Below, one piece after another: positions 4,451-24,581 of a stretch of DNA of 64,000 nucleotides (positions are counted from its first letter, which is position 1; each line of letters opens with the position of its first letter). The notes under the pieces were generated by a model, which saw only the letters and a list, made by a program, of their open reading frames with translations, ran no database searches and was not told where the DNA came from. Made by a program: the position numbers and the translations under genes. The DNA comes from Bacteroides faecis MAJ27 (GTDB taxonomy: Bacteria > Bacteroidota > Bacteroidia > Bacteroidales > Bacteroidaceae), in contig NZ_FNNN01000008.1 of the NCBI RefSeq assembly GCF_900106755.1, forward strand, positions 1 to 64,000. The letters are read 5' to 3'.

Positions 4451-7045
4451 TTAACTCTCTTCCTGGAGCAAATCTTCTATCGTTTGGGTATAGTCTTCTC
4501 CCATACTTTTACGATATTCAATAATGAAAGCCGAATATATTTTGGAAAGATTCTCAAAGTCATTCATCTTTTTATAGCATCTGACACTATACATCAACGC
4601 TCTCTCATTCAACGGATCTCTATTCAGAATAATGAAACAGATGCGCAACACATAACGATACTCATTATGCTGATAATAAACCGGCAAATCCTTAGGAAGC
4701 AATGAAAGAATGGTGTCTTCCGAACGTTGCTTATACTTATCGAACAATGAATGCTCGATATTCTCCAGCAACTTTCCTCTTTCCCATATTGGCAGGAAGT
4801 ATTCACACGACTGAGGGTGCGTAGCTAAATGTATATGCAAATTGAAATAATCGCAAAAACAAAGAGTATCTTCTATTTCTATTTTAAAAATACCTTTGTC
4901 ATAGACCAATCTAATACCATCGAGTTCCAATAGTGTCTTACGCAAATTACTGATAGTAACTCCCTTCAGATTTTTGGCTTTATCTTCTTCCTTGTCCGGC
5001 CAGAATATCTCATTCAAAGAGGATGAACTTACCCCCTCCCTTTCTTTAATACTATTCAACAGAATATATAGAAAGATATACTTCAGCTTCTTACTGAATA
5101 AATGAGTTACATCACGCCCGTCCCGGTTATAAACAGTAAACATACCATATATATAGATCCGGTTGGCTTCTTTTTTATCATTCGTACGAATCTTCGTTTC
5201 CAAAGTGAGTAGTGAGTTCATAGGGCCCGTTGCAGAATAACCACCGGACGAAAATGTGACAGGACGACTTTGAACAACTTCCTTTTGAGTCTTCTTCCTC
5301 TTACGAAAGCCAAAAATCCAAATACTCAATGCCGCTATACACAGAACTGCAAATAGCAATATCAATTTTGACCATCCAATGCTTTTCTCACCCGAAACAT
5401 AATATTCCATCTCTGCCTTACTCACAGGAGGTGCAGATAAAGTATAAATGGTAGCTCTTACCTGTTTAGCCTGCTCATTGCATTCTTGCGCTACACAATA
5501 GTACTCTTTCAATGTCGGATTATAATATAAAGATACGGTAGAAATAATCGATCCGGAAACAAACGGAATAGAATCTCCCAATGCTTCCATACTGCCATCC
5601 TCTATGGATATTCTGTACAACTGCAAACTAGACGTTTTTATGTACTCTGCATAGCGAATCACATAAAGATACTTTCCGTCTTCGGATAAAACCATCTGCT
5701 CGGAAGGTACACGCTTCTCTTCCACAGGATGGCTCCAGTACCGTTTTATGGTACGACGTTCCAAATCAATACCATACAAATCATTATAATAATTATGCCC
5801 AATGCTCTGGTCGCCGGATTCATTGCCTACCCCTCCATATATATACAAATAGTTACCTTGTGCAGAAGAGGTCATTGAAGAGAAAAAGCGGGGAGTTATA
5901 TTGTCTCCTTTAAATTGCAAAGTATCCCACCGGTCTACTCCTTCATTGTAGACCAAAAACTTATTACTATATAATCTATTTCCGAATCCTCCAAATACTA
6001 TATAACGATGATTCTTATTGTCCCAAAAACCATTATGATGATGTAACTGGACTTTAGAATATGCTCTTCCTATAGGCTCCCATTGCAGCGTGGACAAATC
6101 CAGAGACGATATGGTGATACTGTCAACAGGCAGGTTGTTTATCTCATAAGCATACATTCGATTTGCCGATTCATTAATAAAATTAGTTCCCAAGAGCATT
6201 TTTACCGGCATCCTACTCGCATATGGTCTTCGCAGCATTCGCTTTTTTGCAGTCTGATAGGTAAATAACGAATCGGGACTGATAAATTGTATTTCCTGCT
6301 CTTTACAGTTAAACTTTGATCCCACACATTGAGAAACAATGAAAGAGATATCTTTCCTCCAATGATAAGAATCTCCTATTAACCAATAAGGGTTCTCTAC
6401 CCATCCCAGTATTTTACCGTCACTACTGTGCACCTCATGTCCTTGGCTCTCATTCAAATCAAAAGAATAGTTCTGCCTTTCACCGGATACTTTCAGATTA
6501 CGGATAGCAAATGCCGGCAAATCCACCAGATGTTCCCTACGTCCGAAAATAAGTACAGGAGACGTTTGATTGGACGGGGTAACAGAATTTGCTCCATATT
6601 CTCTCTTGCCGGCAATCATCAACAGACTTTCACCCTTCAGAAGATCAATTCTTAATTTTACAGGCAACCATTGTGAGATAACAGAGTCATTAGGCACAGT
6701 GACTGAAATATGATTGACCTTTCCTTCGGTATTAAATTTAAAAACACTATTCTTTTCACTTACATAGGTATATGTCAAACTGTATGCCTCATCACTTATC
6801 GGATTGAGCATATGAAACAGATACCCGAAAGTTTCACTCTGAGATATTCTTAGTTCAAACTCTATATCAATAAAATTAGAGAAAACCGGAGTTTGTTTTT
6901 TCGAGAAAATAGTATAGGAAGTCCGTTGTTCAATCGGTACTTTATTTCCAAAAAACTGCAGACCTTGAGCGCTTAAATGAGGTGTTGCAATTAGTATAGC
7001 TATCAATTCGATAATTAGATATTTATATTTTGCACTATCAATCAT
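4451..7045 (-). CDS. Membrane-spanning regulator: Kelch-type periplasmic sensor plus cytoplasmic winged-helix domain
   Basis: 864 aa from the Met at 7045, which gives a proper signal peptide (KYKYLIIELIAILIATPHLSAQ region). An ATG at 7093 would add 16 residues, but a -7 box lies inside that extension. The N-terminal region has a lectin-like beta domain, then Kelch/galactose-oxidase-like repeats (VFGGFGNRLYSN, YIYGGVGNESGD). A transmembrane helix spans about residues 558-580, followed by basic FRKRKK. The cytoplasmic part has an OmpR/SARP-like winged helix (FSKKLKYIFLYILLNS, then NLRKTLLELDG) and a helical BTAD-like tail. It faces the GH92 gene and is the obvious regulator of this locus, a one-protein alternative to hybrid two-component sensors. 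No kinase or receiver domain is seen. Confidence 0.75.
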   Translation of the reverse strand: MIDSAKYKYLIIELIAILIATPHLSAQGLQFFGNKVPIEQRTSYTIFSKKQTPVFSNFIDIEFELRISQSETFGYLFHMLNPISDEAYSLTYTYVSEKNSVFKFNTEGKVNHISVTVPNDSVISQWLPVKLRIDLLKGESLLMIAGKREYGANSVTPSNQTSPVLIFGRREHLVDLPAFAIRNLKVSGERQNYSFDLNESQGHEVHSSDGKILGWVENPYWLIGDSYHWRKDISFIVSQCVGSKFNCKEQEIQFISPDSLFTYQTAKKRMLRRPYASRMPVKMLLGTNFINESANRMYAYEINNLPVDSITISSLDLSTLQWEPIGRAYSKVQLHHHNGFWDNKNHRYIVFGGFGNRLYSNKFLVYNEGVDRWDTLQFKGDNITPRFFSSMTSSAQGNYLYIYGGVGNESGDQSIGHNYYNDLYGIDLERRTIKRYWSHPVEEKRVPSEQMVLSEDGKYLYVIRYAEYIKTSSLQLYRISIEDGSMEALGDSIPFVSGSIISTVSLYYNPTLKEYYCVAQECNEQAKQVRATIYTLSAPPVSKAEMEYYVSGEKSIGWSKLILLFAVLCIAALSIWIFGFRKRKKTQKEVVQSRPVTFSSGGYSATGPMNSLLTLETKIRTNDKKEANRIYIYGMFTVYNRDGRDVTHLFSKKLKYIFLYILLNSIKEREGVSSSSLNEIFWPDKEEDKAKNLKGVTISNLRKTLLELDGIRLVYDKGIFKIEIEDTLCFCDYFNLHIHLATHPQSCEYFLPIWERGKLLENIEHSLFDKYKQRSEDTILSLLPKDLPVYYQHNEYRYVLRICFIILNRDPLNERALMYSVRCYKKMNDFENLSKIYSAFIIEYRKSMGEDYTQTIEDLLQEES

Positions 7046-7071
7046 ACTATTAAGACTTACGTTCACGGTGG

Positions 7072-7079
7072 TAAAGATA
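7072..7079 (-). promoter_or_regulatory. Candidate -7 box (TATCTTTA) of the regulator gene
   Basis: Near-consensus TAnnTTTG on the minus strand, 27 bp upstream of the preferred start at 7045 and inside the longer reading frame. It therefore supports the shorter protein. Confidence 0.4.
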
Positions 7080-7142
7080 CTGCTTAAAATCATAATGCCA
7101 TCGTTTTGCCACCAGAAATAAATAGTAGGATTAAAAAAAAGG

Positions 7143-7178
7143 TCCGGTTAATTAACCCGATTTTAATTCTGCAATTAA
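7143..7178 (+). promoter_or_regulatory. 36-bp operator block, copy 1 (upstream of GH92)
   Basis: Begins TCCG, then TTAATTAACCC, an internal TTTAATT and a closing CAATTAA. It matches 9471-9506 at 32 or 31 of 36 positions by eye and has the same distance to the downstream -7 box (42 bp from TTAATTAACCC to the box). It probably binds the adjacent regulator. Confidence 0.6.
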
Positions 7179-7189
7179 TAATGCTTTAT

Positions 7190-7198
7190 TTAATTTGC
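7190..7198 (+). promoter_or_regulatory. -7 box (TTAATTTGC) of the GH92 gene
   Basis: One mismatch from TAnnTTTG; the counterpart at 9518 has TTATTTTGC at the same offset from the shared block. The predicted transcript start is about 25 bp before the ATG at 7230. The weak match fits an activator-dependent promoter. Confidence 0.5.
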
Positions 7199-7229
7199 AT
7201 GCAATTAATCTTAAAAGATAAAATACCTC

Positions 7230-9389
7230 ATGAAGACCAACAATCGTATAAAATGGATGATTAGTTTATCCTTCATTTTATTTATCCCAAGTACAAACAT
7301 TGCTCAAAATGCCGGGCAAGCCCCCCAAACGAACTATGCTCAAATGGTTGATACACGCATAGGAAGCAAAGGAAATGGATTAAGCTGCGGATTTACCTAT
7401 ATTGGTGCCAGCTATCCGTTTGGAATGATGCAATTCACACCTTCTTTCTTTTCACCGCAAAAAGGCATCGTAGTCAATCAGATGTCCGGTTCCGGATGTC
7501 CGCATATGGGCAATTTTCCGGTACTGCCCATCAGTGGGAAAGTGACAAAGTCTCCTAAAAATATGGAAGATTTTCCGACCTATAAAGGAATAAGAGAAGC
7601 AACAGCCGGATGTTTATCTCTACAAATGAAAGATGATGTTATCTGCGACGTTACTGTTTCAAAACGTAGCGGAATTGCCCGGTTCATATTTCCTGTTGAT
7701 AAAAAAGAAGGTACCATATTGATTGGTGCAGGAGTCAGTTCCACAACCCTTTCTAACGCCTATATCAAAATAACTTCACCTTCTTCCTGTGAAGGATATG
7801 CGGAAGGCGGAGATTTCTGCGGTTATAAAACTGATTACCGGATATTTTTTGCCGCTGAGTTTAATCACAAGGCAAAAGAATATGGAACCTGGAAAGGAAA
7901 TAGCATCAGAGAAGACAGAAAACAAATCGGAGGAGTCCAGTCCGGTGGATATTTTACCTTTGATACGGAACAGAGTGCTTCGGTTGAATATAAAATCGCC
8001 ATATCGTACGTTTCGGTTGAGAATGCCAAAGAAAATCTGCGGATGGATAACGAGAACCGTAATTACCAACAAGTACTTTCGGATACACGACACGAGTGGA
8101 ACAAGCAACTGGGAAAAATAGAAGTTCATTCGGATAATCCTGATAAGCTAACCCAATTCTACACTCACTGGTATCATACACTCATCCATCCCAATATATT
8201 CAATGATATAAATGGAGAATATATAGGAGCCGATTTTGCTGTTCATAAGGTGACATTCGGAAGAGAATACTATACTACTTTCAGCGGATGGGATACGTAT
8301 CGTACCCAATGTCAGCTGTTGGCCATGTTCTATCCTCAAGAAGCCTCCGACATGATGCAATCTGCCATAGATTTTGCCGAGCAAGCCGGAGGCTATGGAC
8401 GATGGATCGCCGCTAATATAGAAACCGGCGTAATGCATGGCGACCCGATGCCTATCATCATTGCCAATACGTATGCATTTGGCGCACAGAACTTCGATAT
8501 TCAAACGGCTTATAAGCACATGAAACGTGGCGCCTGTACTCCAGGGACTTACTCACAGAATGTAGAAGTACGTCCCGGACTATCTAATTATATAGAAAAG
8601 GGGATAGAGAACGCCTCCTTATGTCTTGAATATGTATCCTCAGACTATGCTATAGGGCAGTTTGCTCTTCAAGCCATGAAAAATAAAAAGGAGGCTTCTT
8701 TCTTTATGAAACGCTCATTAAATTGGAAGAATTTATATGATCCGTCCACCAGATGGCTACGCTCACGCCACAATCATGACTTAAACTGGAAACATCCCGA
8801 TCATGACTGGCGCGAAGCAACCAAAGAAAACTATTTTTGGATGGTACCCCATAACCTGGAAACACTGATTGATACCATCGGAGGTAAAAAAGCTGCATCT
8901 AATCGACTGGACAGTCTGTTTGTACGTCTGGATGCCGGCTACGATGATCATTACTTTGCTGCAGGTAATGAGCCTGACTTCCAGGTTCCTTGGATATATA
9001 ACTGGACAGACCGCCCTTATAAAACATCGGAAACAGTACACCGGATATTAAATGAGATGTACACTTCCAAAGCAGATGGTATGCCGGGAAATGATGATTG
9101 CGGTTCAATGGGATCATGGTATGTATTTGCTTCCATCGGGTTGTATCCTATGATTCCCGGAATAGCCGGATTTAGCGTTAGTCTGCCATATTTTAATGAC
9201 ATCACTTTACACTTTCCTAAAGGAAAGCTGAAAATAAAAGGAGGAGATTTTTCCAAATCTTATATCAATGGTATGAAAATAAACGAAGTAAAAAGCAATA
9301 AAACATGGATTGACTGGGCAGAAATAGTTAATGGTGGCTTTATTGAATATAAAGCGGATAATAAAGCTAATAAAAAATGGGGACTATAA
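7230..9389 (+). CDS. GH92 exo-alpha-mannosidase
   Basis: 719 aa with an N-terminal signal peptide (residues 8-25) and no lipobox, so probably periplasmic. The GH92 N-terminal beta-sandwich starts at VDTRIGSKGNGLSCGFTY. The (alpha/alpha)6 catalytic domain carries the signature TFSGWDTYRTQ, GNEPDFQVPWIYNW (from residue 579) and GMPGNDDCGSMGSWYVFASIG (from residue 617), whose paired Asp residues correspond to the base region of the Ca-dependent inverting mannosidases. The family removes terminal alpha-mannose (1,2; 1,3; 1,4 or 1,6). The linkage cannot be read from sequence alone. It is transcribed from its own promoter with operator copy 1, separately from the operon starting at 9663. Confidence 0.92.
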   Translation: MKTNNRIKWMISLSFILFIPSTNIAQNAGQAPQTNYAQMVDTRIGSKGNGLSCGFTYIGASYPFGMMQFTPSFFSPQKGIVVNQMSGSGCPHMGNFPVLPISGKVTKSPKNMEDFPTYKGIREATAGCLSLQMKDDVICDVTVSKRSGIARFIFPVDKKEGTILIGAGVSSTTLSNAYIKITSPSSCEGYAEGGDFCGYKTDYRIFFAAEFNHKAKEYGTWKGNSIREDRKQIGGVQSGGYFTFDTEQSASVEYKIAISYVSVENAKENLRMDNENRNYQQVLSDTRHEWNKQLGKIEVHSDNPDKLTQFYTHWYHTLIHPNIFNDINGEYIGADFAVHKVTFGREYYTTFSGWDTYRTQCQLLAMFYPQEASDMMQSAIDFAEQAGGYGRWIAANIETGVMHGDPMPIIIANTYAFGAQNFDIQTAYKHMKRGACTPGTYSQNVEVRPGLSNYIEKGIENASLCLEYVSSDYAIGQFALQAMKNKKEASFFMKRSLNWKNLYDPSTRWLRSRHNHDLNWKHPDHDWREATKENYFWMVPHNLETLIDTIGGKKAASNRLDSLFVRLDAGYDDHYFAAGNEPDFQVPWIYNWTDRPYKTSETVHRILNEMYTSKADGMPGNDDCGSMGSWYVFASIGLYPMIPGIAGFSVSLPYFNDITLHFPKGKLKIKGGDFSKSYINGMKINEVKSNKTWIDWAEIVNGGFIEYKADNKANKKWGL

Positions 9390-9470
9390 TTAATCACTTG
9401 TTATATAAACAATTAACATTTAATGAAAAGTAAAATAGATACATGATAATATCAGTAATTAATAAATTTA

Positions 9471-9506
9471 TCCGATTAATTAACCCCAATTTAATTATCC
9501 AATTAA
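9471..9506 (+). promoter_or_regulatory. 36-bp operator block, copy 2 (upstream of the SusCD operon)
   Basis: Second copy of the block at 7143-7178: TCCG, TTAATTAACCC, TTTAATT, CAATTAA, with the few differences in the spacer positions. It covers the -25 to -60 region of the promoter at 9518. Confidence 0.6.
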
Positions 9507-9517
9507 GACTAACTAGT

Positions 9518-9526
9518 TTATTTTGC
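9518..9526 (+). promoter_or_regulatory. -7 box (TTATTTTGC) of the SusCD operon
   Basis: Same offset (42 bp) from the shared block as the GH92 promoter. It predicts a leader RNA of about 130 nt before the ATG at 9663. Confidence 0.5.
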
Positions 9527-9545: not shown

Positions 9546-9596
9546 ATGAAAAAGCACAGTAAATCTCCACCAACTCTTAGAAGTGGTATCTTATAA
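9546..9596 (+). CDS. Possible 16-residue leader ORF in the SusCD operon leader
   Basis: ATG to TAA gives MKKHSKSPPTLRSGIL. It begins about 15 nt after the predicted transcript start. Its end overlaps a hairpin-forming segment (GTATC at 9586-9590 with GATAC at 9607-9611). A basic 16-mer can occur by chance in an AT-rich leader, so this is only a candidate. Confidence 0.2.
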   Translation: MKKHSKSPPTLRSGIL

Positions 9597-9662: not shown

Positions 9663-11027
9663 ATGAAAAATTTAAAAATCAAAAGTCGTAAGACGAGGCT
9701 AGTATTTCCGCTATGCGTTGTGCTACTATCGCTTCTTACTATTTGTTGTAATGATGATCTAAAGGTCGATAAAGAGACTTTTTTTCCTCCTAAAGCAGAT
9801 AAAGAATCCAGATTTGATATTTTTTATCCTGATAGTGGTGGCTTCGGTACGAAACTGATATTGAAAGGCTACAACTTTGGCACAGATACTAATTATATCA
9901 AAGTAACAGTCAACGATAAAAAAGCTAAGGTAATCAGAGCGAACGATAATATTATTTATGCGATAGTTCCTTCAAGAGCAGATACCGGCTATGTTCGCTT
10001 ATATCTTAAAAAAGGAGAAGAATTCGAAGAATTTACTTCTGAAACAGAATTCAGGTATCTATTCAAAAGTAATGTGAGCACTTTATTTGGTGTACCGGGA
10101 AAGGCTGCAGAAGATAATCGCCTAGACGGTCCATATGCAGAAGCTTTATTACGCCGACCATGGCAAATTGTTACTGATAATGATGGTACCATTTATTTTG
10201 TAGACGAAGGACGGGGTCAAAGCAAAAATGGTGCGCTCAGAAAAGCTTCCAATGGGAATGTGGAAACACTAGTTTATGATAATAACGGAGTATTCCAGTC
10301 ACCTAACGGAGTTGTTTTCAGTTTAAATGAGGATACCCTCTTTATACCCAACCGCTGGACAGGTAGTGATGTAAAGACTGATGTAAATATAGTATTCTCT
10401 ACACGTGATGCTAATTTTGTGAATACCAAAGCATTGGTTACTATCCCTAAAGCTGGAACCAATTCAGTCGCTGTACATCCTAAAACCGGAGAGGTCTTTT
10501 TTGACCACAATTCAGAAGGAGCCGTTTATCGTCATACCGGGAATGGTAATTATGAGAAAATGTTAGTTGTCCGTGAAGGTTATAACGATATGGAAATGCG
10601 CTTGCTTTTCAATAAGACAGGTGATATTCTTTATATTATAGCCCGTAAAAAGCACTGTATATATAAAGTTGCTTATAATGCGGCAACACATACATTTGGT
10701 ATTCCGGAGCTATTTGCCGGTGATTACGGAGAATCAGGATATGCTTCCGGTAAAGGAACAGGTGCGCGTTTTAACCAGCCAAGTACTCCTTGCCTGGATC
10801 CAGAAGGTAACCTGCTTATTCCCGATAAAATGAATCACTGTATTCGGAAAATAACACCGGAAGGTGAAGTAACCCTATACGCCGGACAACCTCAAACATC
10901 AGGTCATACAGACGGACTGCCCGATAAAGCTAAATTCTATGAACCTGAAGCCGTAACATTCTCAGGTAACGCTTTAATCGTTGCGGACAGAGGAAATCAT
11001 TGTGTCAGAAATGTAGTTATCGAATAA
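9663..11027 (+). CDS. IPT/TIG and NHL-repeat surface lipoprotein
   Basis: 454 aa. Signal peptide with a Cys pair (LTICCNDD) that provides a lipobox; acidic residues after Cys suggest surface export. An IPT/TIG Ig-like domain covers about residues 50-125 (DSGGFGTKLILKGYNFGTD). From about residue 150 come NHL-type propeller blades (RRPWQIVTDNDGTIYFVDEG, FNQPSTPCLDPEGNLLIPD, FYEPEAVTFSGNALIVADRGNHCVR). Such proteins stand in for SusE/SusF glycan-binding lipoproteins in many Bacteroides loci. It is first in the operon, 22 bp before susC. A glycan-binding role is inferred from position. Confidence 0.8.
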   Translation: MKNLKIKSRKTRLVFPLCVVLLSLLTICCNDDLKVDKETFFPPKADKESRFDIFYPDSGGFGTKLILKGYNFGTDTNYIKVTVNDKKAKVIRANDNIIYAIVPSRADTGYVRLYLKKGEEFEEFTSETEFRYLFKSNVSTLFGVPGKAAEDNRLDGPYAEALLRRPWQIVTDNDGTIYFVDEGRGQSKNGALRKASNGNVETLVYDNNGVFQSPNGVVFSLNEDTLFIPNRWTGSDVKTDVNIVFSTRDANFVNTKALVTIPKAGTNSVAVHPKTGEVFFDHNSEGAVYRHTGNGNYEKMLVVREGYNDMEMRLLFNKTGDILYIIARKKHCIYKVAYNAATHTFGIPELFAGDYGESGYASGKGTGARFNQPSTPCLDPEGNLLIPDKMNHCIRKITPEGEVTLYAGQPQTSGHTDGLPDKAKFYEPEAVTFSGNALIVADRGNHCVRNVVIE

Positions 11028-11049
11028 CATATAAATCTATAAATTATCC

Positions 11050-14000
11050 ATGAATAACATGAAACGAATATTCATTCTGCTCCTTATCACAACACTATGG
11101 GGAGTACAAGATAATATCTCCGCACAGCAATTACGAAAAGAGAATAATACACCAGAAGTGCAGGGAATCATAAAAGATATAACAGGTAATCCAATTATCG
11201 GAGCAACAGTTATAGCTAAAAACCAGCCGGGACTCGGTGTTACTTCAGATATGGACGGAAAGTTTAAAATCAAAGTAGGGGAATACGACATATTGGTTAT
11301 TTCTTATATTGGATATACTACTCAGGAAATTCCTGTTATAAGAATTAAAAATAAAAAGGAAGCAATAGTCACCCTGCAAGAAGATAATCAGACTATCGAT
11401 GAAGTAGTCGTAACAGCCAGTGGACATCAGCAAAAGAAGACTCTGACAGGAGCTTATACTACAGTAGATATAGCCCAATTAACAGCACCAAGTTCCAATA
11501 TCACCAACTCTCTGGCGGGAGTAGTACCGGGAATCATCGCAGTACAAAGTTCTGGCGAACCGGGTGAAGATATGTCCGAGTTCTGGATTCGTGGAATCAG
11601 CACATTCGGCGCAAATCAGGGAGCATTAGTTTTAGTAGACGGAGTAGAAAGAAGCTTTAATGAAATTCCAATTGAAGATATTGAAAGCTTTTCTGTACTG
11701 AAAGATGCTTCTGCGACAGCCATCTACGGGCAACGTGGTGCAAATGGTGTGGTATTGGTAACCACCAAACAGGGAGTTGCCGGAAAAGTAAAAATTAATG
11801 CAAAAGTATTAGCAGGATTAGACGCCAGAGGCCCGATGCCCGAATATGCTAATGCTTTTACTTATGCCAGCTTGGCAAATGAAGCCCGTATAGGCAGATA
11901 CGAATCTCCTCGCTATACTCGTGAAGAGTTAGATATTATACAGAATAATCTCGATCCGGATTTATTCCCAAATGTAAATTGGCGTGATCTGATGCTGAAA
12001 AAAGTATCTCCCAAATACATAGCAAACATTAACCTAAGTGGAGGTGGAACAAATGTAACATACTATGTTTCATTAGGATATAACAGTCAGGCAGGTATTT
12101 ATAAGAGTAAGAGTGTCGAAAATAAATACAATACCAACACAACTTACGAACGATTCAATTATCGTGCCAACGTAAATATGAATGTCACTAAAACAACACT
12201 TGTTAAAGTGGGAATCGGCGGCTACCTAATTAATCGCACTCAACCGGGTAGCAGCACAAATGATATCTGGGGATCTTTCTCCAGATTGACTCCACTGAGT
12301 ATTCCCCGTAAATACTCGACCGGTGAAGAACCATCCGTAGATGGAGTGAAAACACCAGAATATTATATGACCAAAACAGGCTATAAGACTATCTGGCAGA
12401 ATAAAATGGAAACTAATATCAGACTGGAACAAGACTTGGATTTCATTACTCAAGGATTGAAATTTGTAGGAACATTTGCATTTGATACATATAATGAGAA
12501 TGAAATTAAACGAATTAAAACTCCTGAATTATGGGAAGCAGAAAAATATCGTGATCCGGACGGAAATCTTATTTTAAAACGAGTGCAGACAGCACAGTTA
12601 ATGGGACAGGAATCGACTACGAAAGGAGATAAACGATATTATACGGAAGCCTCTCTCAGCTATTCCAGGCTATTTAATCAAAAGCACCGTTTTGGCGCAT
12701 TTGCTATGGTCTATTTACAAGAAAAATCTGATACTAATTTAGGCACAGACATTATCGAATCTATTCCGAAGCGGAATCTGGCGTATTCAGGCCGATTCAC
12801 TTACGCATACAAAGATCGTTATCTTGTAGAAACGAACTGGGGATACACCGGTTCGGAAAACTTTGAAAAAGGGAAGCAATTTGGCTTCTTTCCAGCTTTC
12901 TCTGCCGGTTGGGTTATTTCTGAGGAACCGTTTATGAAGAAGATTGCTCCATGGGTAGAAATGCTTAAAATCCGGGCTTCTTATGGTGAGGTAGGAAATG
13001 ATATTATCGGTGGACGTCGTTTTCCATACATTGGATTGGTAAATTCGCATCCGGATGGTGACTACTCATTTGGTGAATTTGGAACAAACAAAATACAAGG
13101 TTACAGAAATGGTACTATTGGCACTCCTAATCTGACTTGGGAGGTTGCTAAAAAATATAACTTGGGATTTGACTTAAGTTTATTCCACGGTAAATTCACA
13201 GGAGTCGCTGATATTTTCCTGGATAAACGAGATGATATTTTTATGACGCGCAGTCATATGCCTGAAACAACAGGACTGGCAGATAAAGCTCCAATGGCTA
13301 ATGTAGGTAAAATGAAGAGTTACGGATTCGACTGGAATGCAGCATATTCCGATCAAATTGGACAAGTAAAATTCACTATTCGTGCAAATATGACTTATCA
13401 GAACACTGAAATTCTGGATAAAGATGAGGCAGCCAACGAATTATGGTACAAAATGGAAAAAGGATTCCGAATGAATCAGACACGTGGCTTAATAGCTATG
13501 GGGTTATTCAAAGATGAGGAAGATGTTCGCAGTAGTCCAAGACAAGACTTCGGCGGGAAAGAAGTACTCCCCGGAGATATCAAATATAAAGACGTAAACG
13601 GTGATGGAGTGGTCAACAATGATGATATCGTTCCAATAGGCTATAGAACTGTTCCGGGAGTCCAGTATGGCATGGGATTAAGTACAAGCTGGAAGAATTT
13701 TGAATTCAATATCCTGTTCCAAGGTTCAGGAAAATGTGACTTCTTCATCGGTGGAAATGGGCCACACGCATTCCGAAATGGACAAACCGGTAATATTCTG
13801 CAGACTATGGTGGATGACAACCGATGGATCCCAAGTGAAATCTCCGGAGATATTTCTACCGAAAATCCGAATGCTAACTGGCCGCGTTTAACCTGGGGGA
13901 ATAATGACAACAACAATCAGAAATCAACTTTCTGGTTAAGGGACGGACGCTATATTCGCCTTAAAAACATTGAACTACGCTATAATGTTCCTACAACTTT

Positions 14001-14187
14001 TACTCGTAAGTTCTTTGTTAGCAATATGCAAATCGGATTTATTGGCGAAAATCTACATACTTGGAGCCCATTCAAACTATGGGATCCTGAGAATGCAACA
14101 ACTGATGAAAAAAATAGTGGAGTTCGAAGTGGAAATGCTTATCCTATAAACAGGACCTACTCTTGCTATATTAAATTAAGTTTCTAA
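11050..14187 (+). CDS. SusC/RagA TonB-dependent outer-membrane transporter (no STN domain)
   Basis: 1045 aa (a second Met at 11059 is equally plausible). A signal peptide is followed by a CarboxypepD_reg-like domain (VQGIIKDITGNPIIGATV ... SYIGYTTQEIPV), the TonB box region DEVVVTASG, a plug domain with the SusC signatures SEFWIRGISTFG and VLKDASATAIYGQRGANGVVLVTT, and a long 22-strand barrel ending NRTYSCYIKLSF with terminal aromatic Phe. It imports oligosaccharides with the SusD lipoprotein encoded 12 bp downstream. Lack of an N-terminal STN domain means no FecR-type signalling, consistent with control by the Kelch regulator instead. Confidence 0.95.
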   Translation: MNNMKRIFILLLITTLWGVQDNISAQQLRKENNTPEVQGIIKDITGNPIIGATVIAKNQPGLGVTSDMDGKFKIKVGEYDILVISYIGYTTQEIPVIRIKNKKEAIVTLQEDNQTIDEVVVTASGHQQKKTLTGAYTTVDIAQLTAPSSNITNSLAGVVPGIIAVQSSGEPGEDMSEFWIRGISTFGANQGALVLVDGVERSFNEIPIEDIESFSVLKDASATAIYGQRGANGVVLVTTKQGVAGKVKINAKVLAGLDARGPMPEYANAFTYASLANEARIGRYESPRYTREELDIIQNNLDPDLFPNVNWRDLMLKKVSPKYIANINLSGGGTNVTYYVSLGYNSQAGIYKSKSVENKYNTNTTYERFNYRANVNMNVTKTTLVKVGIGGYLINRTQPGSSTNDIWGSFSRLTPLSIPRKYSTGEEPSVDGVKTPEYYMTKTGYKTIWQNKMETNIRLEQDLDFITQGLKFVGTFAFDTYNENEIKRIKTPELWEAEKYRDPDGNLILKRVQTAQLMGQESTTKGDKRYYTEASLSYSRLFNQKHRFGAFAMVYLQEKSDTNLGTDIIESIPKRNLAYSGRFTYAYKDRYLVETNWGYTGSENFEKGKQFGFFPAFSAGWVISEEPFMKKIAPWVEMLKIRASYGEVGNDIIGGRRFPYIGLVNSHPDGDYSFGEFGTNKIQGYRNGTIGTPNLTWEVAKKYNLGFDLSLFHGKFTGVADIFLDKRDDIFMTRSHMPETTGLADKAPMANVGKMKSYGFDWNAAYSDQIGQVKFTIRANMTYQNTEILDKDEAANELWYKMEKGFRMNQTRGLIAMGLFKDEEDVRSSPRQDFGGKEVLPGDIKYKDVNGDGVVNNDDIVPIGYRTVPGVQYGMGLSTSWKNFEFNILFQGSGKCDFFIGGNGPHAFRNGQTGNILQTMVDDNRWIPSEISGDISTENPNANWPRLTWGNNDNNNQKSTFWLRDGRYIRLKNIELRYNVPTTFTRKFFVSNMQIGFIGENLHTWSPFKLWDPENATTDEKNSGVRSGNAYPINRTYSCYIKLSF

Positions 14188-14199
14188 ATAAAATACCAT

Positions 14200-16179
14200 A
14201 TGAAAAAGATAATATTATTCATTACTATTTTCTGCGCTTCATTATCCTTTCACTCATGTGCAGATTTCCTGGACGTAGATAAATATTTCTATGATATGCT
14301 ATCGGTAGATTCCGCTTTCTCCAAACGAGTATATGTAGAAGGATGGTTATCCAATACATACGACTATTTAAAACAAGACAATCTAACAGAGTTCGGTTCC
14401 AAATTGATGTGGGCTAGTGATGATTTAGTCCACCCGGACGGAAAAGCTCTGCAGAACTGTAATTATAGTGCCAGTAATTTCCCTATTTACGAAAACCATT
14501 TAAATAGAACCTATGAATGTATTCGTAAATCCTCTACATTTATTGACAAAGTAGTAGAGTGTCCGGAACTTACTTATGAGGACATTTCGGATATGCAGGG
14601 ACAAGCCCGTTTTTTACGAGCATTTGCCTATTGGAGTTTAATAAGAACTTTCGGTCCTGTGCCTTTAATTCCTGAACATGGATTAGATGTTAGTCTTTCA
14701 TATGAAGAATTATCTCTGCCCCGCGCTAAATTTGATGAAATCATCGATTTCATCGACAATGATCTAAAGCTCGCTGCTCGTGTTATGCCAAGAACACGTA
14801 CCATTAATAATTTAGGACGCCCTACCAAAGGTGCTGCTCTAGCATTAAGAGCTAGAATATTATTATATGCGGCCAGTCCTATGAATAATGGAAATACTGA
14901 TTTCTTTAATATTAAAAACCTGGACGGAACACAACTATATAATCAAGAATATGATGAATCAAAATGGGCACGGGCCGCTGCTGCCGCAGAAGATGTGATT
15001 AATCTACAGCAATACAGCTTATATACAGTAGAGCCCCAAAATAATGTGCCTGAATATGAACGCCCTCCCTATCATGAAACTTATTCTAATGAAGAATTTC
15101 CTAATGGATGGAGCAATATAGATCCTTATGCTTCCTATAAAGAAATGTTTGATGGAACAATTCGTGGCTCTAAAAATCCTGAATTAATATTCACTAAAAC
15201 CAAAGCAACAGGAAATTGTGGAATCGAAGATTTCTTTAATAAGAAAAGTATGCCCAGAACTGCCCATGGAGATAACAAAGTCGCTATTACTCAAAAAATG
15301 ATCGATACTTATTATATGAACAATGGACAAACTATAGAAGAGGCAGAGACAACAGGATATTATGTAAGAGAAGGATTCACAGAAACAGCTAATGACCCGC
15401 AAACCATGAATGGAGCTCCCTTCATGGGAGTAGGTGTATCACTGATGTATGCAAAACGTGAAGCACGTTTCTACGCTTGTGTTGGTTTTAATGGTGCTAC
15501 ATGGGAATGTGAAAGTTCCTCGCTGTCTAGCGAGAAAAATTTCCAGTGTTGGTATTACAGAGATGAAGTAAATGGTAAACAAGGATTTACAGAGAACTGT
15601 CCACTGACCGGTATAGGATTTAAAAAGTACTACAACAAAGAAGACTCTTATTCTGAGGGTGGATATCGAACAAATAAAACAGAGCCGACTATACGGTATG
15701 CAGAAGTTTTACTCATTTATGCAGAGGCTCTCAATGAGTTAACTAGTGGAAACACATATACTATGCAAACGTTCAATGACCAAGAAGTGGAAATCAAACG
15801 TGATCCCATCAAAATGAGGGAAGCGATGAAGCCCATAAGAATGCGTGCCGGCTTACCTGATTTTGATGATAATACTTACAATACTTATAGAAATTTTAAA
15901 GAAGTATTAAAAAGAGAACGTCACATAGAATTATTTGCAGAAAATTGTTTCCGCTATTTTGATTTAAGAAGATGGAAAGATGCAGAAGAAGAGGAAAATC
16001 AGGCATTAATGGGATGTAACATCAATATTACAAAGGACGACGAGTCAAGGCAGGGATTCTATATTACAACTGCAGTGACTGCTATTCCCAAAGTCTTTTT
16101 GAAGAAAATGTACCTTTGGCCTTTTCCGACTGCTGAATTAAAACGTAACGTCAATCTGACACAAAACCCAGAATGGTAA
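14200..16179 (+). CDS. SusD/RagB glycan-binding lipoprotein
   Basis: 659 aa. Lipobox SFHSC with Cys20, then ADFLDVDKYFYD as in SusD-family N-termini. The TPR-rich alpha-helical body has the RFLRAFAYWSLIRTFGPVPL helix pair and ALRARILLYAASP. The C-terminal family signature is RHIELFAENCFRYFDLRRWKDAE, and the end, PKVFLKKMYLWPFPTAELKRN, is the usual SusD finish. It caps the SusC barrel and delivers glycan at the cell surface. It is at the long end of the family range, with an insert around residues 290-330. Confidence 0.95.
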   Translation: MKKIILFITIFCASLSFHSCADFLDVDKYFYDMLSVDSAFSKRVYVEGWLSNTYDYLKQDNLTEFGSKLMWASDDLVHPDGKALQNCNYSASNFPIYENHLNRTYECIRKSSTFIDKVVECPELTYEDISDMQGQARFLRAFAYWSLIRTFGPVPLIPEHGLDVSLSYEELSLPRAKFDEIIDFIDNDLKLAARVMPRTRTINNLGRPTKGAALALRARILLYAASPMNNGNTDFFNIKNLDGTQLYNQEYDESKWARAAAAAEDVINLQQYSLYTVEPQNNVPEYERPPYHETYSNEEFPNGWSNIDPYASYKEMFDGTIRGSKNPELIFTKTKATGNCGIEDFFNKKSMPRTAHGDNKVAITQKMIDTYYMNNGQTIEEAETTGYYVREGFTETANDPQTMNGAPFMGVGVSLMYAKREARFYACVGFNGATWECESSSLSSEKNFQCWYYRDEVNGKQGFTENCPLTGIGFKKYYNKEDSYSEGGYRTNKTEPTIRYAEVLLIYAEALNELTSGNTYTMQTFNDQEVEIKRDPIKMREAMKPIRMRAGLPDFDDNTYNTYRNFKEVLKRERHIELFAENCFRYFDLRRWKDAEEEENQALMGCNINITKDDESRQGFYITTAVTAIPKVFLKKMYLWPFPTAELKRNVNLTQNPEW

Positions 16180-16196
16180 TTAAAACAAAGAAGAAT

Positions 16197-17147
16197 ATGA
16201 AAAGAATAATAAACATAATATCCATTACTTTAGGAATATTCATCTTCACAGCTTGTCAAGATGAACTAAACAACGAACTGTTCCACAAATTTTCCTATTT
16301 GGTAGAAAATGGATGGCAAACCTGTGAAGTGGAGATTAAAGATGGAAATATTACCGAATTATTAATTGACTTCGGTATTAACGGAACTTCTGAGAATGAT
16401 AAAGATATAACTCTTAAGATTACTAATGACCCAGATACCTTAGCCGATTATAACTTCGACAAATTTAAAAATCAAATAAGTTCCTATTATATAGAACTTC
16501 CAACCAATTGTTATAGCTTCGACCAGGAAGTATATACCATTCCTAAAGGAAAATACAAAACGACAGCCAAAATTCAGATAGAATTGGATAAGATTCAAAA
16601 TATCTACAACGACTATGTATTACCCTTGAAAATAGAATCTTCCACCGGAGAATCGGTTGGACCAAGCAAATATAGCAAATTATTAGCTTACATTTTACCT
16701 ACGAACAGGTTTTCCGGAACATTCTCAGGGTCTGGTAAGATTACAATTGACGGAACAAGTCAGAGTACTTCTGTTGGCAGTGCCAAATTATATGCCTCAT
16801 CAATTAATACGTGCTATATGTATGCCGGTAATACCAATCAGGACACAGATCCTAATTATAAAGATTATGCTATTAATCTTAGCTTTGATGAAAAAGAACA
16901 TATAACTCTAACTGCCAGAAATGTTGAATTAGAGCTAGAACCAATTACTAATACTCTTACAAGAAAGTATGTATTACACGATACTGATACCCGATATTAT
17001 GTACAGACCAGTGTTTTGTATTTAAAATATAAATACAAAGATTTGACAGAAGGAGAACGACGCACAATCGTGTATGAAGGCACACATACTCAAATAAAAA
17101 ATGTATTAATAAGTGACTATCCTAATGTTAAAGTAGAAGAAGAGTAA
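16197..17147 (+). CDS. SusE-position lipoprotein (DUF1735/DUF4361-like)
   Basis: 316 aa from the ATG at 16197, which gives a clean lipoprotein signal (lipobox FTAC, Cys20). The ATG at 16173 overlaps susD and only adds a polar extension. The N-terminal half contains an Ig-like DUF1735 pattern (ITLKITNDPDTLADYN, YTIPKGKYKTTAKIQIEL, YVLPLKIESSTG). The C-terminal half is beta-rich and resembles the DUF4361 lipocalin-like domain found in SusE-position proteins. It follows susD by 17 bp. It most likely binds glycan at the surface, inferred from position. Domain names are from pattern recognition and not verified. Confidence 0.65.
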   Translation: MKRIINIISITLGIFIFTACQDELNNELFHKFSYLVENGWQTCEVEIKDGNITELLIDFGINGTSENDKDITLKITNDPDTLADYNFDKFKNQISSYYIELPTNCYSFDQEVYTIPKGKYKTTAKIQIELDKIQNIYNDYVLPLKIESSTGESVGPSKYSKLLAYILPTNRFSGTFSGSGKITIDGTSQSTSVGSAKLYASSINTCYMYAGNTNQDTDPNYKDYAINLSFDEKEHITLTARNVELELEPITNTLTRKYVLHDTDTRYYVQTSVLYLKYKYKDLTEGERRTIVYEGTHTQIKNVLISDYPNVKVEEE

Positions 17148-17184
17148 CTGGAACAATAACTATACAATATATAAAACCTTTTAG

Positions 17185-19557
17185 ATGAAAAAACAACTAA
17201 AACTAACATTGCTAAGCTGCTTGTTGTCTATCCCGGCAATCACTCAGGCAGGTCCTAAAGACGATATCTATCGAAAAGGATGGATTGATTTCAATAAAAA
17301 TGGCAAGATGGACATATATGAAGACCCATCTGCCCCGATAGAGGAGCGCGTCAAAGACCTGTTAAGTCAAATGAACATGGATGAAAAGACTTGTCAAATG
17401 GCGACTCTCTACGGTTCCGGTCGTGTTCTAGCCGACGCATTACCGACTGAAAAATGGAAGTCGGAAATATGGAAAGACGGTATAGGAAACATTGACGAAG
17501 AGCATAACGGACTGGGGAAATTCGGCTCTGAGTATGCATTTCCTTATGCTAAACACGTTAAAGCTATACACGATATCCAACGCTGGTTTGTTGAAGAAAC
17601 ACGATTAGGAATTCCGGTAGACTTTACCAATGAGGGAATTCGTGGGGTTTGTCATGAGAAGGCTACTTTTTTCCCTGCCCAATGCGGGCAGGGAAGTACC
17701 TGGAACAAAGAGCTGATTGCCCGGATTGGTGAAGTAGAAGCTAAAGAAGCTGTTGCTTTGGGATATACAAATATCTACTCTCCTATTCTGGACATAGCAC
17801 AGGACCCTCGTTGGGGACGTGCGGTAGAATGCTATGGCGAAGATCCATACCTAGTAGGACAGTTAGGAAAGCAGATGATTCAAAGTTTGCAGAAACACAA
17901 GCTGGTAGCCACTCCGAAGCATTTTGCCGTATATAGCATTCCAGTAGGCGGACGTGACGGAGGTACGCGTACAGACCCGCACGTAGCTCCGCGTGAAATG
18001 CGTACTCTCTACCTCGAGCCCTTCCGCGTTGCATTTCAGGAAGCGGGAGCATTGGGAGTTATGAGCTCATACAATGATTATGACGGTGAACCTATTACCG
18101 GAAGCTATCGGTTCCTCACCCAGATTTTACGTCAGGAATGGGGATTTAAAGGATACGTTGTATCAGACAGCGATGCTGTCGAATTCATCTCAAGCAAACA
18201 CAAAGTTGCTGATAATAATGAAGAAGCAGTAGTACAATCGGTCAATGCAGGCCTAAATGTACGCACTAACTTCAGCTCTCCGGCAGGCTTTATAAAGCCG
18301 TTACGAAGTGCCATTGCCAAAGGCAAGGTATCACAAGCTACTATCGACCAACGCGTAAGTGAGATTTTGTATGTCAAATTTTGGTTAGGTTTATTTGATA
18401 ATCCTTACCGTGGTGACGGAAAATTAGCGGATAAAATAGTGCACTGCAAAGAACATCAGGCAGTAGCATTGGAGGCCGCCCGTCAGTCAATTGTTCTTTT
18501 GAAGAATCAAGATAACCTATTGCCCCTTCAAAAGACATTGAAGTCTGTAGCTGTAATAGGTCCGAACGCAGATGAGCAAAAAGAACTCATCTGCCGTTAC
18601 GGTCCTTCCAATGCCCCAATAAAGACTGTGTACAAAGGTATTAAAGAAGCCCTGCCGGGAGCTAAGGTGGTATATAAAAAGGGATGTGAAATAGTGGATC
18701 CACATTTTCCTGAAAGTGAAGTTCTACCTTTTGATATAACGCCCAAAGAGCAGCAGATAATGGATGAAGCAATTGAAGCTGCAAAATCTGCCGAAGTTGT
18801 AATTATGGTATTAGGAGGTAGTGAAGTTACTGTACGTGAAGAGCGTTCACGCACAAGTCTTGACTTACCGGGCAGACAGGAAGAATTACTGAAAGCTGTA
18901 TGCAAGCTGGGGAAACCCACCATTCTGGTAATGATTGACGGTCGTGCTTCCAGCATTAATTATGCAAAAAAATATGTACCTGCTATTCTCCATGCATGGT
19001 TCCCGGGAGAGTTTTGCGGACAGGCAGTTGCAGAAACAATCTTTGGAGATAATAATCCCGGGGGTAAGTTAGCAGTCACTTTTCCAAAGTCTGTAGGACA
19101 AATACCTTTTGCCTTTCCATTCAAACCAGGGTCTGACAGCGGCTGCGGCACTTCAGTTACCGGCGCTCTTTTCCCTTTTGGACATGGATTGAGCTACACG
19201 ACATTCGAATACAATAATCTGAAAATATCTCCTGAACAACAAGGAGTACTAGGGGAAGTGAAAGTGAGCTGTACGGTTAAAAATACAGGTAAAAGACCCG
19301 GTGATGAAGTAGTACAACTTTATCTCAGAGATGAAATCAGTAGCGTCACAACATACGTAAAAATACTACGCGGCTTTGAACGAATTACCTTACAACCGAA
19401 CGAAGAAAAAAAAGTGACCTTTACACTGAGCCCACAAGACCTTGCCATCTGGGACAAAAATATGAAATTTCAAGTAGAACCGGGTACATTCAAAGTAATG
19501 ATCGGAGCTTCTTCAAAGGATATCAGGCTTGAAGGTAAGTTCATAATCAATAAATAG
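17185..19557 (+). CDS. GH3 beta-glycosidase
   Basis: 790 aa with a signal peptide (cleavage near QAGPKDD). An EF-hand-like DFNKNGKMDIYEDP stretch lies just before the GH3 TIM barrel, as in several Bacteroides GH3 enzymes. The barrel shows NEGIRGV, PILDIAQDPRWGR, ATPKHFAVY and the nucleophile motif VVSDSDAVE (Asp328). The alpha/beta sandwich and a C-terminal fibronectin-III-like domain (EVVQLYLRDEISS ... LRGFERITL) complete the standard three-domain layout. Activity is probably beta-glucosidase or beta-xylosidase, with specificity unresolved. It sits between SusE-position and GH38 genes and is likely periplasmic. Confidence 0.92.
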   Translation: MKKQLKLTLLSCLLSIPAITQAGPKDDIYRKGWIDFNKNGKMDIYEDPSAPIEERVKDLLSQMNMDEKTCQMATLYGSGRVLADALPTEKWKSEIWKDGIGNIDEEHNGLGKFGSEYAFPYAKHVKAIHDIQRWFVEETRLGIPVDFTNEGIRGVCHEKATFFPAQCGQGSTWNKELIARIGEVEAKEAVALGYTNIYSPILDIAQDPRWGRAVECYGEDPYLVGQLGKQMIQSLQKHKLVATPKHFAVYSIPVGGRDGGTRTDPHVAPREMRTLYLEPFRVAFQEAGALGVMSSYNDYDGEPITGSYRFLTQILRQEWGFKGYVVSDSDAVEFISSKHKVADNNEEAVVQSVNAGLNVRTNFSSPAGFIKPLRSAIAKGKVSQATIDQRVSEILYVKFWLGLFDNPYRGDGKLADKIVHCKEHQAVALEAARQSIVLLKNQDNLLPLQKTLKSVAVIGPNADEQKELICRYGPSNAPIKTVYKGIKEALPGAKVVYKKGCEIVDPHFPESEVLPFDITPKEQQIMDEAIEAAKSAEVVIMVLGGSEVTVREERSRTSLDLPGRQEELLKAVCKLGKPTILVMIDGRASSINYAKKYVPAILHAWFPGEFCGQAVAETIFGDNNPGGKLAVTFPKSVGQIPFAFPFKPGSDSGCGTSVTGALFPFGHGLSYTTFEYNNLKISPEQQGVLGEVKVSCTVKNTGKRPGDEVVQLYLRDEISSVTTYVKILRGFERITLQPNEEKKVTFTLSPQDLAIWDKNMKFQVEPGTFKVMIGASSKDIRLEGKFIINK

Positions 19558-19589
19558 GTATTAATATAGAAATAAAGGAATTATCAAGA

Positions 19590-22500
19590 ATGAAAAAAAG
19601 AACCATTTTATTAGCCTTACTATTTGCTACAACAGGACTCAGTCCGCTGCAAGCACAAAAGAAGTACAAAGCTTATATAGTCTCGAACTCGCATTTGGAT
19701 ACTCAGTGGAACTGGGATGTACAGACAACCATTGACGAATACCTCAAGCATACGCTGGTCAGAAACTTCTATCTGTTTCAGCATTATCCCAATTATGTAT
19801 TTAACTTTGAAGGTGGAGTAAAATATAACTGGATAAAAGAGTATTACCCGCTTGAGTATGAACTGGTGAAAAAATATATCAAAGAAGGTCGTTGGCATAT
19901 CTCAGGCAGCTCGTGGGATGCCAATGATACTAACGTACCTTCACCCGAATCTTTCTTCCGCAATATTCTGTTGGGACAACAATTCTATAAACAAGAGTTT
20001 GGAGTTAAATCTACAGATATCTTCTTGCCGGACTGTTTTGGATTCAGTTATACATTGCCCACTATTGCAGCACATTGTGGCTTAATTGGTTTCTCAACGC
20101 AAAAATTACAATGGAGACACCATAATATGCACGGAAAATCCAAGATGCCATTCAATATCGGTCTATGGCAAGGGGTAGACGGCTCACGCATCATGGCAGC
20201 TTTAAATGGCAAAAACTATGTTCACGAATGGAATGGTGGAGATATCAGCCAAGATAACGACCTAAAAAATACGGCAAAAAATGGAGCCAATAACACTGCA
20301 TACCGTTACTATGGTGCAGGAGACCGAGGTGGTTCTGCTAATATAAATTCGGTTGTTTCCATAGAAAAAGGTGTTAAAGGCAGTGGAGAAGTTGAAATTA
20401 TCAGTGCTACTTCCGATCAGTTATACAAAGACTATCTGCCATTCGATAATCATCCTGAACTTCCTGTATACGATGGCGAGTTACTGATGGACATCCATGC
20501 TACCGGCTGTTATACTTCGCAGGCAGCCATGAAATTATATAATCGTCGGAACGAACAATTAGGCGATGCAGCCGAACGAATTTCAGTAATGGCTGATTAT
20601 ATTGACGGAGCAAGCTATCCGGCAAATACGCTGACAGATGCGTGGCGTCGGTTTATCTGGCATCAATTCCACGATGACCTCACAGGGACGAGTCTTCCTC
20701 AGGCCTATACCTATTCCTGGAATGATGAACTGATCTCTCAAACGCAGTTTAATGATATCATCCGTACCGGAGTCGGTTCTCTCGCTTCTTGCTTGGATAC
20801 AAGAGTAAAAGGAACTGCACTCATCGTTTATAATGCAATGGCCGCCCAACGGAAAGAACTAGCAGAAGCCTATATAAATATCTCAAAGGAGCCTGCTGGA
20901 GTGCAAGTATTTGACGCTAACGATAAAGAAATTCCGGCACAATTACTTAATTGGGAAAACGGGAAAGCACACATTGCCTTTAGTGCTTCTGTAGCTCCAT
21001 TAAGCTGCTCCGTATATGATGTCCGTTTTGGAAAAAACAATAAGAGTTCCTTCTTGAAAGCAACTCAGAATTCTTTGGAAAATAGCATCTATAAACTGAC
21101 TTTAGATACTAATGGCGATATTGTTTCTATTATTGACAAGCGTAGTAATAAGGAACTGGTAGAACAGGGCAAGGCATTCCGTCTGGTTTTACTCCTAGGC
21201 AATGAATCGAAAGAATGGCCTGCATGGGAGATTCAAAAAAAGACTATAGATAAGCCCGGAACTCCAATCTCAGAAAATGTTCGTATCAGTATCGAAGAAC
21301 AAGGTCCCTGTTATGCAGCTCTTCGCATTGAACGCACCTATAAATCTTCTAAATTCATACAATACATCCGCATGAGTGAAGGGGCAAACGATGAACGAAT
21401 CGATATCATTAATGAAATAGACTGGTCAACAAAAGACGCCGTATTAAAAGCAGAGTTTCCAATGAATGTAAAAAATCGGGAAGCTGTTTATGATCTGGGT
21501 ATCGGAACTGTAAAGCGTAAGAACAATACAGATACTGCTTATGAAGTATATGCACAACAATGGGCAGACATTACGTCTTCCGATAAAAGTTACGGAATCT
21601 CAATCCTGAATGATTGTAAGTATGGATGGGATAAACCCAATGATAACACTTTGCGACTGACACTACTCCATGCTCCCAGTACCAAAGACAGATATAAATA
21701 TCAGGAACAGCAAGACTTCGGACATCACACCTTCACTTATTCAATCGTGGGCCATCAGGACGGAGCATTACAAGCCGGAATCAGCCATTTGGCCGAATCC
21801 CTGAATAGTCAGCTGGCTGTATTCAACACGCCCAAACATAAAGGTGCATTAGGACGTGAATATTCTTTCGTAAAAGTAAATACCCCGCAAGTGGCTATTC
21901 GTTCCTTAAAAAAAGCGGAAGAAAGTGATTTATACATCATCCGTTTATACGAGATGCAAGGTAAATCTGCACAAAATGTAGAAATTACATTCCCTGCTCC
22001 CATAGAATCGGGCTATGAGGCCAATGGCATCGAAGAGAAAATAGGCGAAGCTACTATACAGGACAATAAATTATGTTTCGACATGGCATCTTATCAACCA
22101 AGAACCTTCGCTATCCGATTGAAAAAAGGAAAAGTAAAAGCAGATCCAATAAAGAACATACCACTTCAATTACCATTTAACAGTAAGGCTTTCACTCCTG
22201 AAAACTTTGGCTATACTGTTTCTTTCGATAAAAAAGGAAATAGTTTCGCAGCTGAACTAATTGGTGATAAAGTTACTTGTGATGATATCACTTTCAGCAT
22301 AGCTAACTATGAAAATAAAAATGTTATCAAATGTAAGGGAGATACAATCCAACTACCCAAGGAAGCAGCGGGCAAGAAACTATATATCCTCGCAACTTCT
22401 ACAGACAAGGATCGCAAAGCAAAATTCATTGTTAATAGTAAATCACACGAATTTGAAATACCTTATTACTCCGGCTTCTATGGACAGTGGGGGCATAAGG

Positions 22501-22757: not shown

Positions 22758-22788
22758 TAGGATAACAACACTATAAAACTTCAACATT

Positions 22789-22832
22789 AAAAAGAGCTTT
22801 TCCCGAAATAGATTGGGGAAAAAGCTCTTTTT
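22789..22832 (+). terminator. Hairpin with T-run inside the operon (partial terminator)
   Basis: Arms AAAAAGAGCTTTTCCC (22789) and GGGGAAAAAGCTCTTTTT (22815) pair over about 16 bp with one bulged A, ending in a T-run. It lies between GH38 and the GxGYxYP gene, which share strand and orientation, so it may lower expression of the last two genes. Confidence 0.75.
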
Positions 22833-22851
22833 AACCCTAAACATTACAATC

Positions 22852-24567: not shown

Positions 24568-24581
24568 ATATGAATTCGCTT

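Follow-up and report, generated by a model that had tools for sequence, protein, structure and literature searches.

The DNA analysed here, referred to as the window, is a stretch of 64,000 nucleotides from Bacteroides faecis MAJ27. It carries on the reverse strand a gene for a predicted Kelch-SARP regulator (4451–7093), so described from Pfam Kelch matches, hydropathy and AlphaFold2 models. Divergently oriented from it is a GH92 alpha-mannosidase gene (7230–9389, forward strand; Pfam GH92 and GH92N), which is the first presumed target. The second is a presumed operon (9663–27191, forward strand) which, according to open reading frames and Pfam, encodes TIG/NHL, SusC, SusD, BT_3044-like, GH3, GH38, GxGYxYP and MG2 proteins. 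Co-transcription of these genes is inferred from their spacing and strand. A 16-codon open reading frame, MKKHSKSPPTLRSGIL (9546–9596), lies between the promoter of this SusCD operon and the TIG/NHL gene; a leader peptide is possible.

Two 36-bp blocks on the forward strand, operator 1 (7143–7178) before the GH92 gene and operator 2 (9471–9506) before the SusCD operon, share the same letter at 31 of 36 positions. They were delimited in a preliminary description of the window, which had claimed agreement at 31–32 positions and a common distance of 42 bp to a similar weak −7 box. Both claims held. The observed identity exceeds the best 36-mer match in each of 1000 dinucleotide shuffles of the upstream regions (mean 22.3, maximum 28). 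TTAATTAACCC begins at 7148 in the first block and at 9476 in the second, and is 42 bp away from the −7 box in both cases, these boxes being TTAATTTG (7190–7197) and TTATTTTG (9518–9525), again on the forward strand. Each box deviates by one letter from the consensus TAnnTTTG (PMC7366714, PMC12632263), and the sequence has no TTTG near −33 at either promoter. The flanks of the two blocks are dissimilar. A comparison of the 136-bp region 7094–7229 with a plasmid collection revealed no match.

Each block contains three repeats on the forward strand: R1, TTAACC (7152–7157 and 9480–9485); R2, TTAATT, at +11 from R1 (7163–7168 and 9491–9496), one letter away from TTAAyC; and R3, TTAA, at +23 from R1 (7175–7178 and 9503–9506). 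The array ends 11 bp before the −7 box. TTTG follows 15–16 bp past the last TTAA, and the value of 15 nt found at operator 1 is the commonest distance among related sites. A possible outlying half-site, R0 (TTAA, forward strand), is located 21 bp before R1 of each operator (7131–7134 and 9459–9462). Judged from sequence alone, the 36-bp block is best read as three direct repeats, TTAAyC-N5-TTAAyC-N6-TTAA, with spacings of 11 and 12 bp. The block of the preliminary description is thereby refined to a threefold repeat array followed at constant spacing by a −7 box.

A degenerate form of the 36-mer with up to three mismatches occurs in the 5.96-Mb genome of this strain at these two places only, and its reversed pattern does not occur at all. 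The claim that the blocks precede the GH92 gene and the SusCD operon only was upheld, and the check for the block at unrelated genes by this search revealed only the two window places. There is one caveat to ‘only’: the looser architecture TTAAYY-N5-TTAAYY-N6-TTAA-N15-TTTG has one extra exact match in the genome besides the window sites. At up to three mismatches this architecture is at background (31 places versus 33 for the reversed pattern). Among 149 genomes of the genus, three have a match to the degenerate block and none to the reversed one; both genomes other than that of the window also encode the regulator.

Relatives of the regulator at E ≤ 1e-80 were found in 33 of 111 genus genomes, and eight of the relatives are 58–65% identical to the window regulator. 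Two blocks are present in all eight close orthologous loci, one divergent from the regulator gene and one 2.4–4.5 kb further on. In G059 the second block missed the initial threshold and was recovered later; in G144 and G094 the contig ends before the gene following the second block. With nine loci aligned by position, mean column identity of the repeats and the −7 box is 0.86–1.00 at promoter 1 and 0.79–1.00 at promoter 2; that of spacers and flanks is 0.36–0.73. As the sites had been picked by their likeness to the 36-mer, only the conservation of the −7 box is independent, because the box lies outside the 36-mer used for site finding. By column conservation the block reduces to TTAAyC, a second TTAAyC at +11, TTAA at +23 and, 15 bp beyond it, TTTG. 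Another TTAA, two turns upstream of the array, is partly conserved: the stretch around R0 (7131–7134) has a mean column identity of 0.63, compared with 0.41 further out. The term ‘duplicated’ in the preliminary description has to be corrected, as the unlike flanks and the presence of both blocks in 8/8 close loci point to two copies of a conserved operator with no visible recent duplication. In Bacteroides reticulotermitis (L042/L080), the regulator match has an internal stop codon and the GH92 region consists of two open reading frames; both operators are kept.

A search with the 36-mers of the window in 28 distant genus loci revealed no match of 26/36 or better, and a half-site pattern was therefore required. 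It was applied to 102 regulator loci (1.68 Mb), comprising the window, 21 genus loci (one of them a paralogue in the same genome, with 24% identity) and the top 80 among 134 named loci from a genome collection. The set is partly redundant, with near-copies included, such as four from the Bacteroides fragilis group. The core TTAAyC-N5-TTAAyC-N6-TTAA had 29 exact and 29 one-mismatch occurrences, its reversed form none; the counts were 42 versus 6 reversed with two mismatches and 146 versus 99 with three. Without the nine close loci, the remaining 93 contained 15 exact and 25 one-mismatch cores versus 0 and 0 reversed, and 30 of these 40 cores had TTTG at 15 or 16 bp past the core. When exact cores in the 93 loci were sorted by gap pair, 15 had the gaps (5,6), and each other pair tested accounted for 0–4. 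The nine close loci by themselves yield the same gaps. This test on 93 loci was not blind, since the results of earlier searches were already known when the pattern was settled.

A model trained on 51 sites scored above every reversed control in 62 of the 102 loci. This is an undercount, because for some of the genus loci the first set had been trimmed close to the 3′ end of the regulator. Upon addition of the missing flank, all 14 re-examined genus loci gained a site, raising the number of loci with a site to 76. Both counts are subject to the reservation that the model was trained on part of the loci scored, and two loci (L056 and L141) pass narrowly (18.0 versus a control maximum of 16.8). 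All but one of 87 model sites lie outside open reading frames of 150 amino acids or more, and the median distance from TTTG to the chosen next start is 84 nt (85 sites). The element is common to much of the regulator family and not private to the window locus. No site was found for 26 loci in the flanks examined, wider flanks having been added only for the 14 genus loci. Among these 26 are a mostly Cytophagales group of 14 and four Flavobacteriaceae; several others are on short contigs. In the 40 loci that lacked a site at that stage, generic searches for triple repeats and for dimers gave no convincing hit other than truncated arrays at the ends of loci. A truncated regulator outside the set (G152:C147) had no site within 18 kb. 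Label-change counts on the regulator tree were set aside, the labels predating the flank correction. Five loci (L030–L034, in G056, G041, G072, G103 and G046) have sites on the 3′ side of the regulator gene with four consecutive TTAACC/GTAACC-like repeats.

Specificity was analysed in the 111 genus genomes. A core search with nine gap pairs gave 85 places versus 19 for the reversed patterns (summed from the table), and we read most of the 85 as background. With the 11/12 spacing (5/6 gaps), 22 of 27 cores have a listed regulator gene within 20 kb. For the other spacings this applies to one of 58, and that one overlaps a true array. The stretches within 20 kb of regulators total only 1.6 Mb. 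Five of the 27 cores with 5/6 gaps are away from a regulator, one of them being a relic copy of a GH92 promoter. The full architecture, with any fifth letter and TTTG at exactly 15, has 18 sites in 14 of the 111 genomes and none in the control. Fifteen of these sites are close to a regulator; the others are the relic and two sites of a TTAAGC type. Their R2, TTAATT, keeps the window sites out of the 18; they do match once TTAAYY is allowed. In a sample of 296 genomes across the phylum, in which regulators were not sought, there was no excess of cores (11 versus 16 reversed, summed).

Some individual sites deserve description. The relic (G035:C12, L193, approximately 7470–7850) comprises the GH92 promoter and a 5′ part of GH92, is broken, and adjoins genes for DUF5128 beta-propellers. 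The third exact match to the looser architecture in the genome of the window (G000:C45:95771–95816, reverse strand; L219) has TTAATT repeats and TTTG at 15. It precedes an operon with a heparinase II/III-like gene; its model score is 20.9 versus 41.6 and 39.2 for the window sites. The TTAAGC version of the array, with the same −7 spacing, was found at G000:C52:156716–156761 (forward strand; L218) and at G071:C14:36537–36582. The former is 12 kb from the paralogous Kelch-SARP gene of the same genome (C52:141950–144472). The gene after it looks by eye like that of a GH2-type glycosidase, Pfam being silent on the first 115 residues. In G071, the TTAAGC site and the closest relative of the paralogue lie on different contigs.

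The first genes after 73 of 85 sites were scanned; 12 near-duplicate or paralogue rows were left out, and the close orthologous loci are included. Twenty of these genes encode GH92 and 26 have CarbopepD_reg_2 (SusC type), with Plug in 12. The rest comprise GH125 (4), GH76 (4), TIG (4), GxGYxYP (2) and fucosidase (2). GH92, GH125 and GH76 enzymes act on alpha-mannosides; mannosides are therefore likely to be the main signal, though not the sole one.

The regulator is predicted to consist of an N-terminal hydrophobic segment, a beta-sandwich (LamG-like by eye), a Kelch propeller, a single transmembrane helix (approximately residues 574–600) and a cytoplasmic part with a winged helix and a BTAD-like TPR region (approximately residues 644–880). 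Its true start may be an internal Met, residue 17 (7045). Hydropathy analysis places a membrane helix at the equivalent position in 101 of the 102 regulators. Pfam detected only Kelch-type families at E ≤ 0.001, without kinase or receiver; BTAD was not found by Pfam in the window regulator, and was found in 4 of 35 relatives. An NCBIfam search returned nothing useful, and a PDB sequence search mostly TPR designs. The full-length AlphaFold2 model (pLDDT 80.8, pTM 0.57) shows the beta-sandwich, the propeller, the helix 574–600, a linker of low confidence and the C-terminal domain, and the best fold matches of the whole model are Kelch domains. The C-terminal domain modelled alone (pLDDT 93.7, pTM 0.86) gave AfsR (8k60/8hvr) and EmbR (2fez/2ff4) as top Foldseek matches for residues 642–880, with Z 14.9–13.3 and rmsd 5.2–5.7 over 226–230 residues; the next row has Z 9.5, and the winged helix of TcpP also matches, at Z 8.2. 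For the cytoplasmic part, modelling thus predicts a fold like that of two SARP activators, AfsR and EmbR.

Taken together, the two blocks are likely to be operators of the divergently encoded, membrane-tethered Kelch-SARP, acting as an activator of alpha-mannoside loci. Binding and the direction of control are inferred, as there are no binding or expression data. A small regulon of this regulator had been proposed in the preliminary description. Comparative evidence supports the proposal, since sites of the same spacing cluster beside genes of the regulator family, often before mannosidase and SusC genes. We envisage that the periplasmic ectodomain senses a mannoside ligand. The tethered SARP domains would then be arranged side by side on the repeats, covering the place of the missing −33 element, and may contact the primary sigma factor, so that the GH92 gene and the SusCD operon would be switched on from weak promoters having a −7 element only. 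If the box is placed at about −10 to −3, R2 would fall at around −37 and R3 at around −25, positions close to those of the AfsR repeat pair (−40 to −19), and R1 may be the site of an extra protomer. The ligand and the number of protomers in the oligomer are, like the direction of control, inferred.

Three other explanations were considered. The regulator might bind the blocks as a repressor, blocking the promoters until mannoside releases the tethered protein. Only 11 bp separate the end of the array from the −7 box, and a bound protein could exclude RNA polymerase. This is nevertheless unlikely: the SARP fold and the SARP-like geometry favour activation, the boxes are one letter off the consensus and TTTG near −33 is lacking. 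Alternatively, the sites could serve another transcription factor or a sigma factor at the same loci. Data on binding by the regulator are lacking, and TTAA-rich promoters are common in AT-rich genomes. We consider this very improbable, because in the 111 genomes such 11/12-spaced sites hardly occur outside the surroundings of regulator-family genes, the association holds whichever side of the regulator the targets occupy, and the phylum-wide sample, with the restriction given above, has no core excess. A recent DNA duplication that copied a promoter block without regulatory meaning could account for the 31/36 identity within 2.3 kb; it is all but excluded by the unlike flanks and already contradicted by the eight loci with 58–65% identical regulators, which have separately conserved both copies.

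The reading as operators of an activator can be extended. Membrane-tethered Kelch-SARPs may form a class of PUL regulators that spans the phylum and shares one operator code: three, sometimes four, SARP domains side by side on an asymmetric array of 11 + 12 bp, set at constant spacing from the Bacteroidota −7 box and serving largely alpha-mannoside loci, with paralogues using shifted half-sites such as TTAAGC. We regard this bolder reading as about as likely as not. If true, the operator code could be read genome by genome. The operator reading itself provides an uncharacterised family of glycan regulators with a predicted binding site, a promoter geometry and a target list, extending from Bacteroides to Mucilaginibacter, and makes many mannoside loci predictable from their sequence. 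It also suggests that SARP activation, a mechanism familiar from Streptomyces, operates in Bacteroidota as well, there from the membrane and on promoters with a −7 box.

The literature searched (titles and beginnings of abstracts, with few subscription papers) contained nothing relevant on Kelch or SARP regulators of PULs, which is not proof of novelty. The word ‘kelch’ is absent from the main text of a regulon study in Bacteroides (PMC3878776), which names three HTCS for alpha-mannans. The system described here shares with HTCS the PUL targets and direct-repeat operators. HTCS combine a histidine kinase, a receiver and an AraC-like output domain, and their sites are two repeats approximately 21 bp apart (PMC3878776). 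The window regulator does not conform to this type, having neither kinase nor receiver by Pfam and a predicted SARP-like output fold. SusR-like proteins are likewise PUL regulators with direct-repeat sites, but the centres of their repeats are separated by 67 or 77 bp (PMC3878776), a tandem spacing unlike that of the repeats at +11 and +23.

Regulators of the ToxR/CadC/TcpP type resemble the Kelch-SARP in being one-component proteins with a single membrane helix and an OmpR-type DNA-binding domain. ToxR and CadC have an N-terminal cytoplasmic winged helix, a transmembrane segment and a C-terminal periplasmic sensor, and are not known to have a BTAD part. The order is different in the window regulator, in which the ectodomain is followed by the membrane helix and the winged helix.

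SARP activators, to which ActII-ORF4 and RedD also belong, bind direct repeats 11 or 22 bp apart, with the 3′ repeat 8 bp from −10. They form a side-by-side dimer on a box overlapping −35, and sigma region 4 is held there (PMC10936776). AfsR and EmbR have an OmpR-type winged helix followed by a BTAD-type TPR domain, and the predicted model of residues 642–880 has this arrangement. Direct repeats 11 bp apart just upstream of the −10/−7 element are likewise found: in the 93 distant loci the prevailing spacing is +11 followed by +12, although binding data are not available. The distance of the 3′ repeat also conforms, as TTAA of R3 is mostly 15 or 16 bp from TTTG, so that the −7 octamer starts 11–12 bp after TTAA, or 7–8 bp after an eight-letter repeat. 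What differs is the setting: here, in a member of the Bacteroidota, the predicted SARP part is membrane-tethered and C-terminal, behind a Kelch ectodomain, and its presumed sites have three repeats, at +11 and +12.
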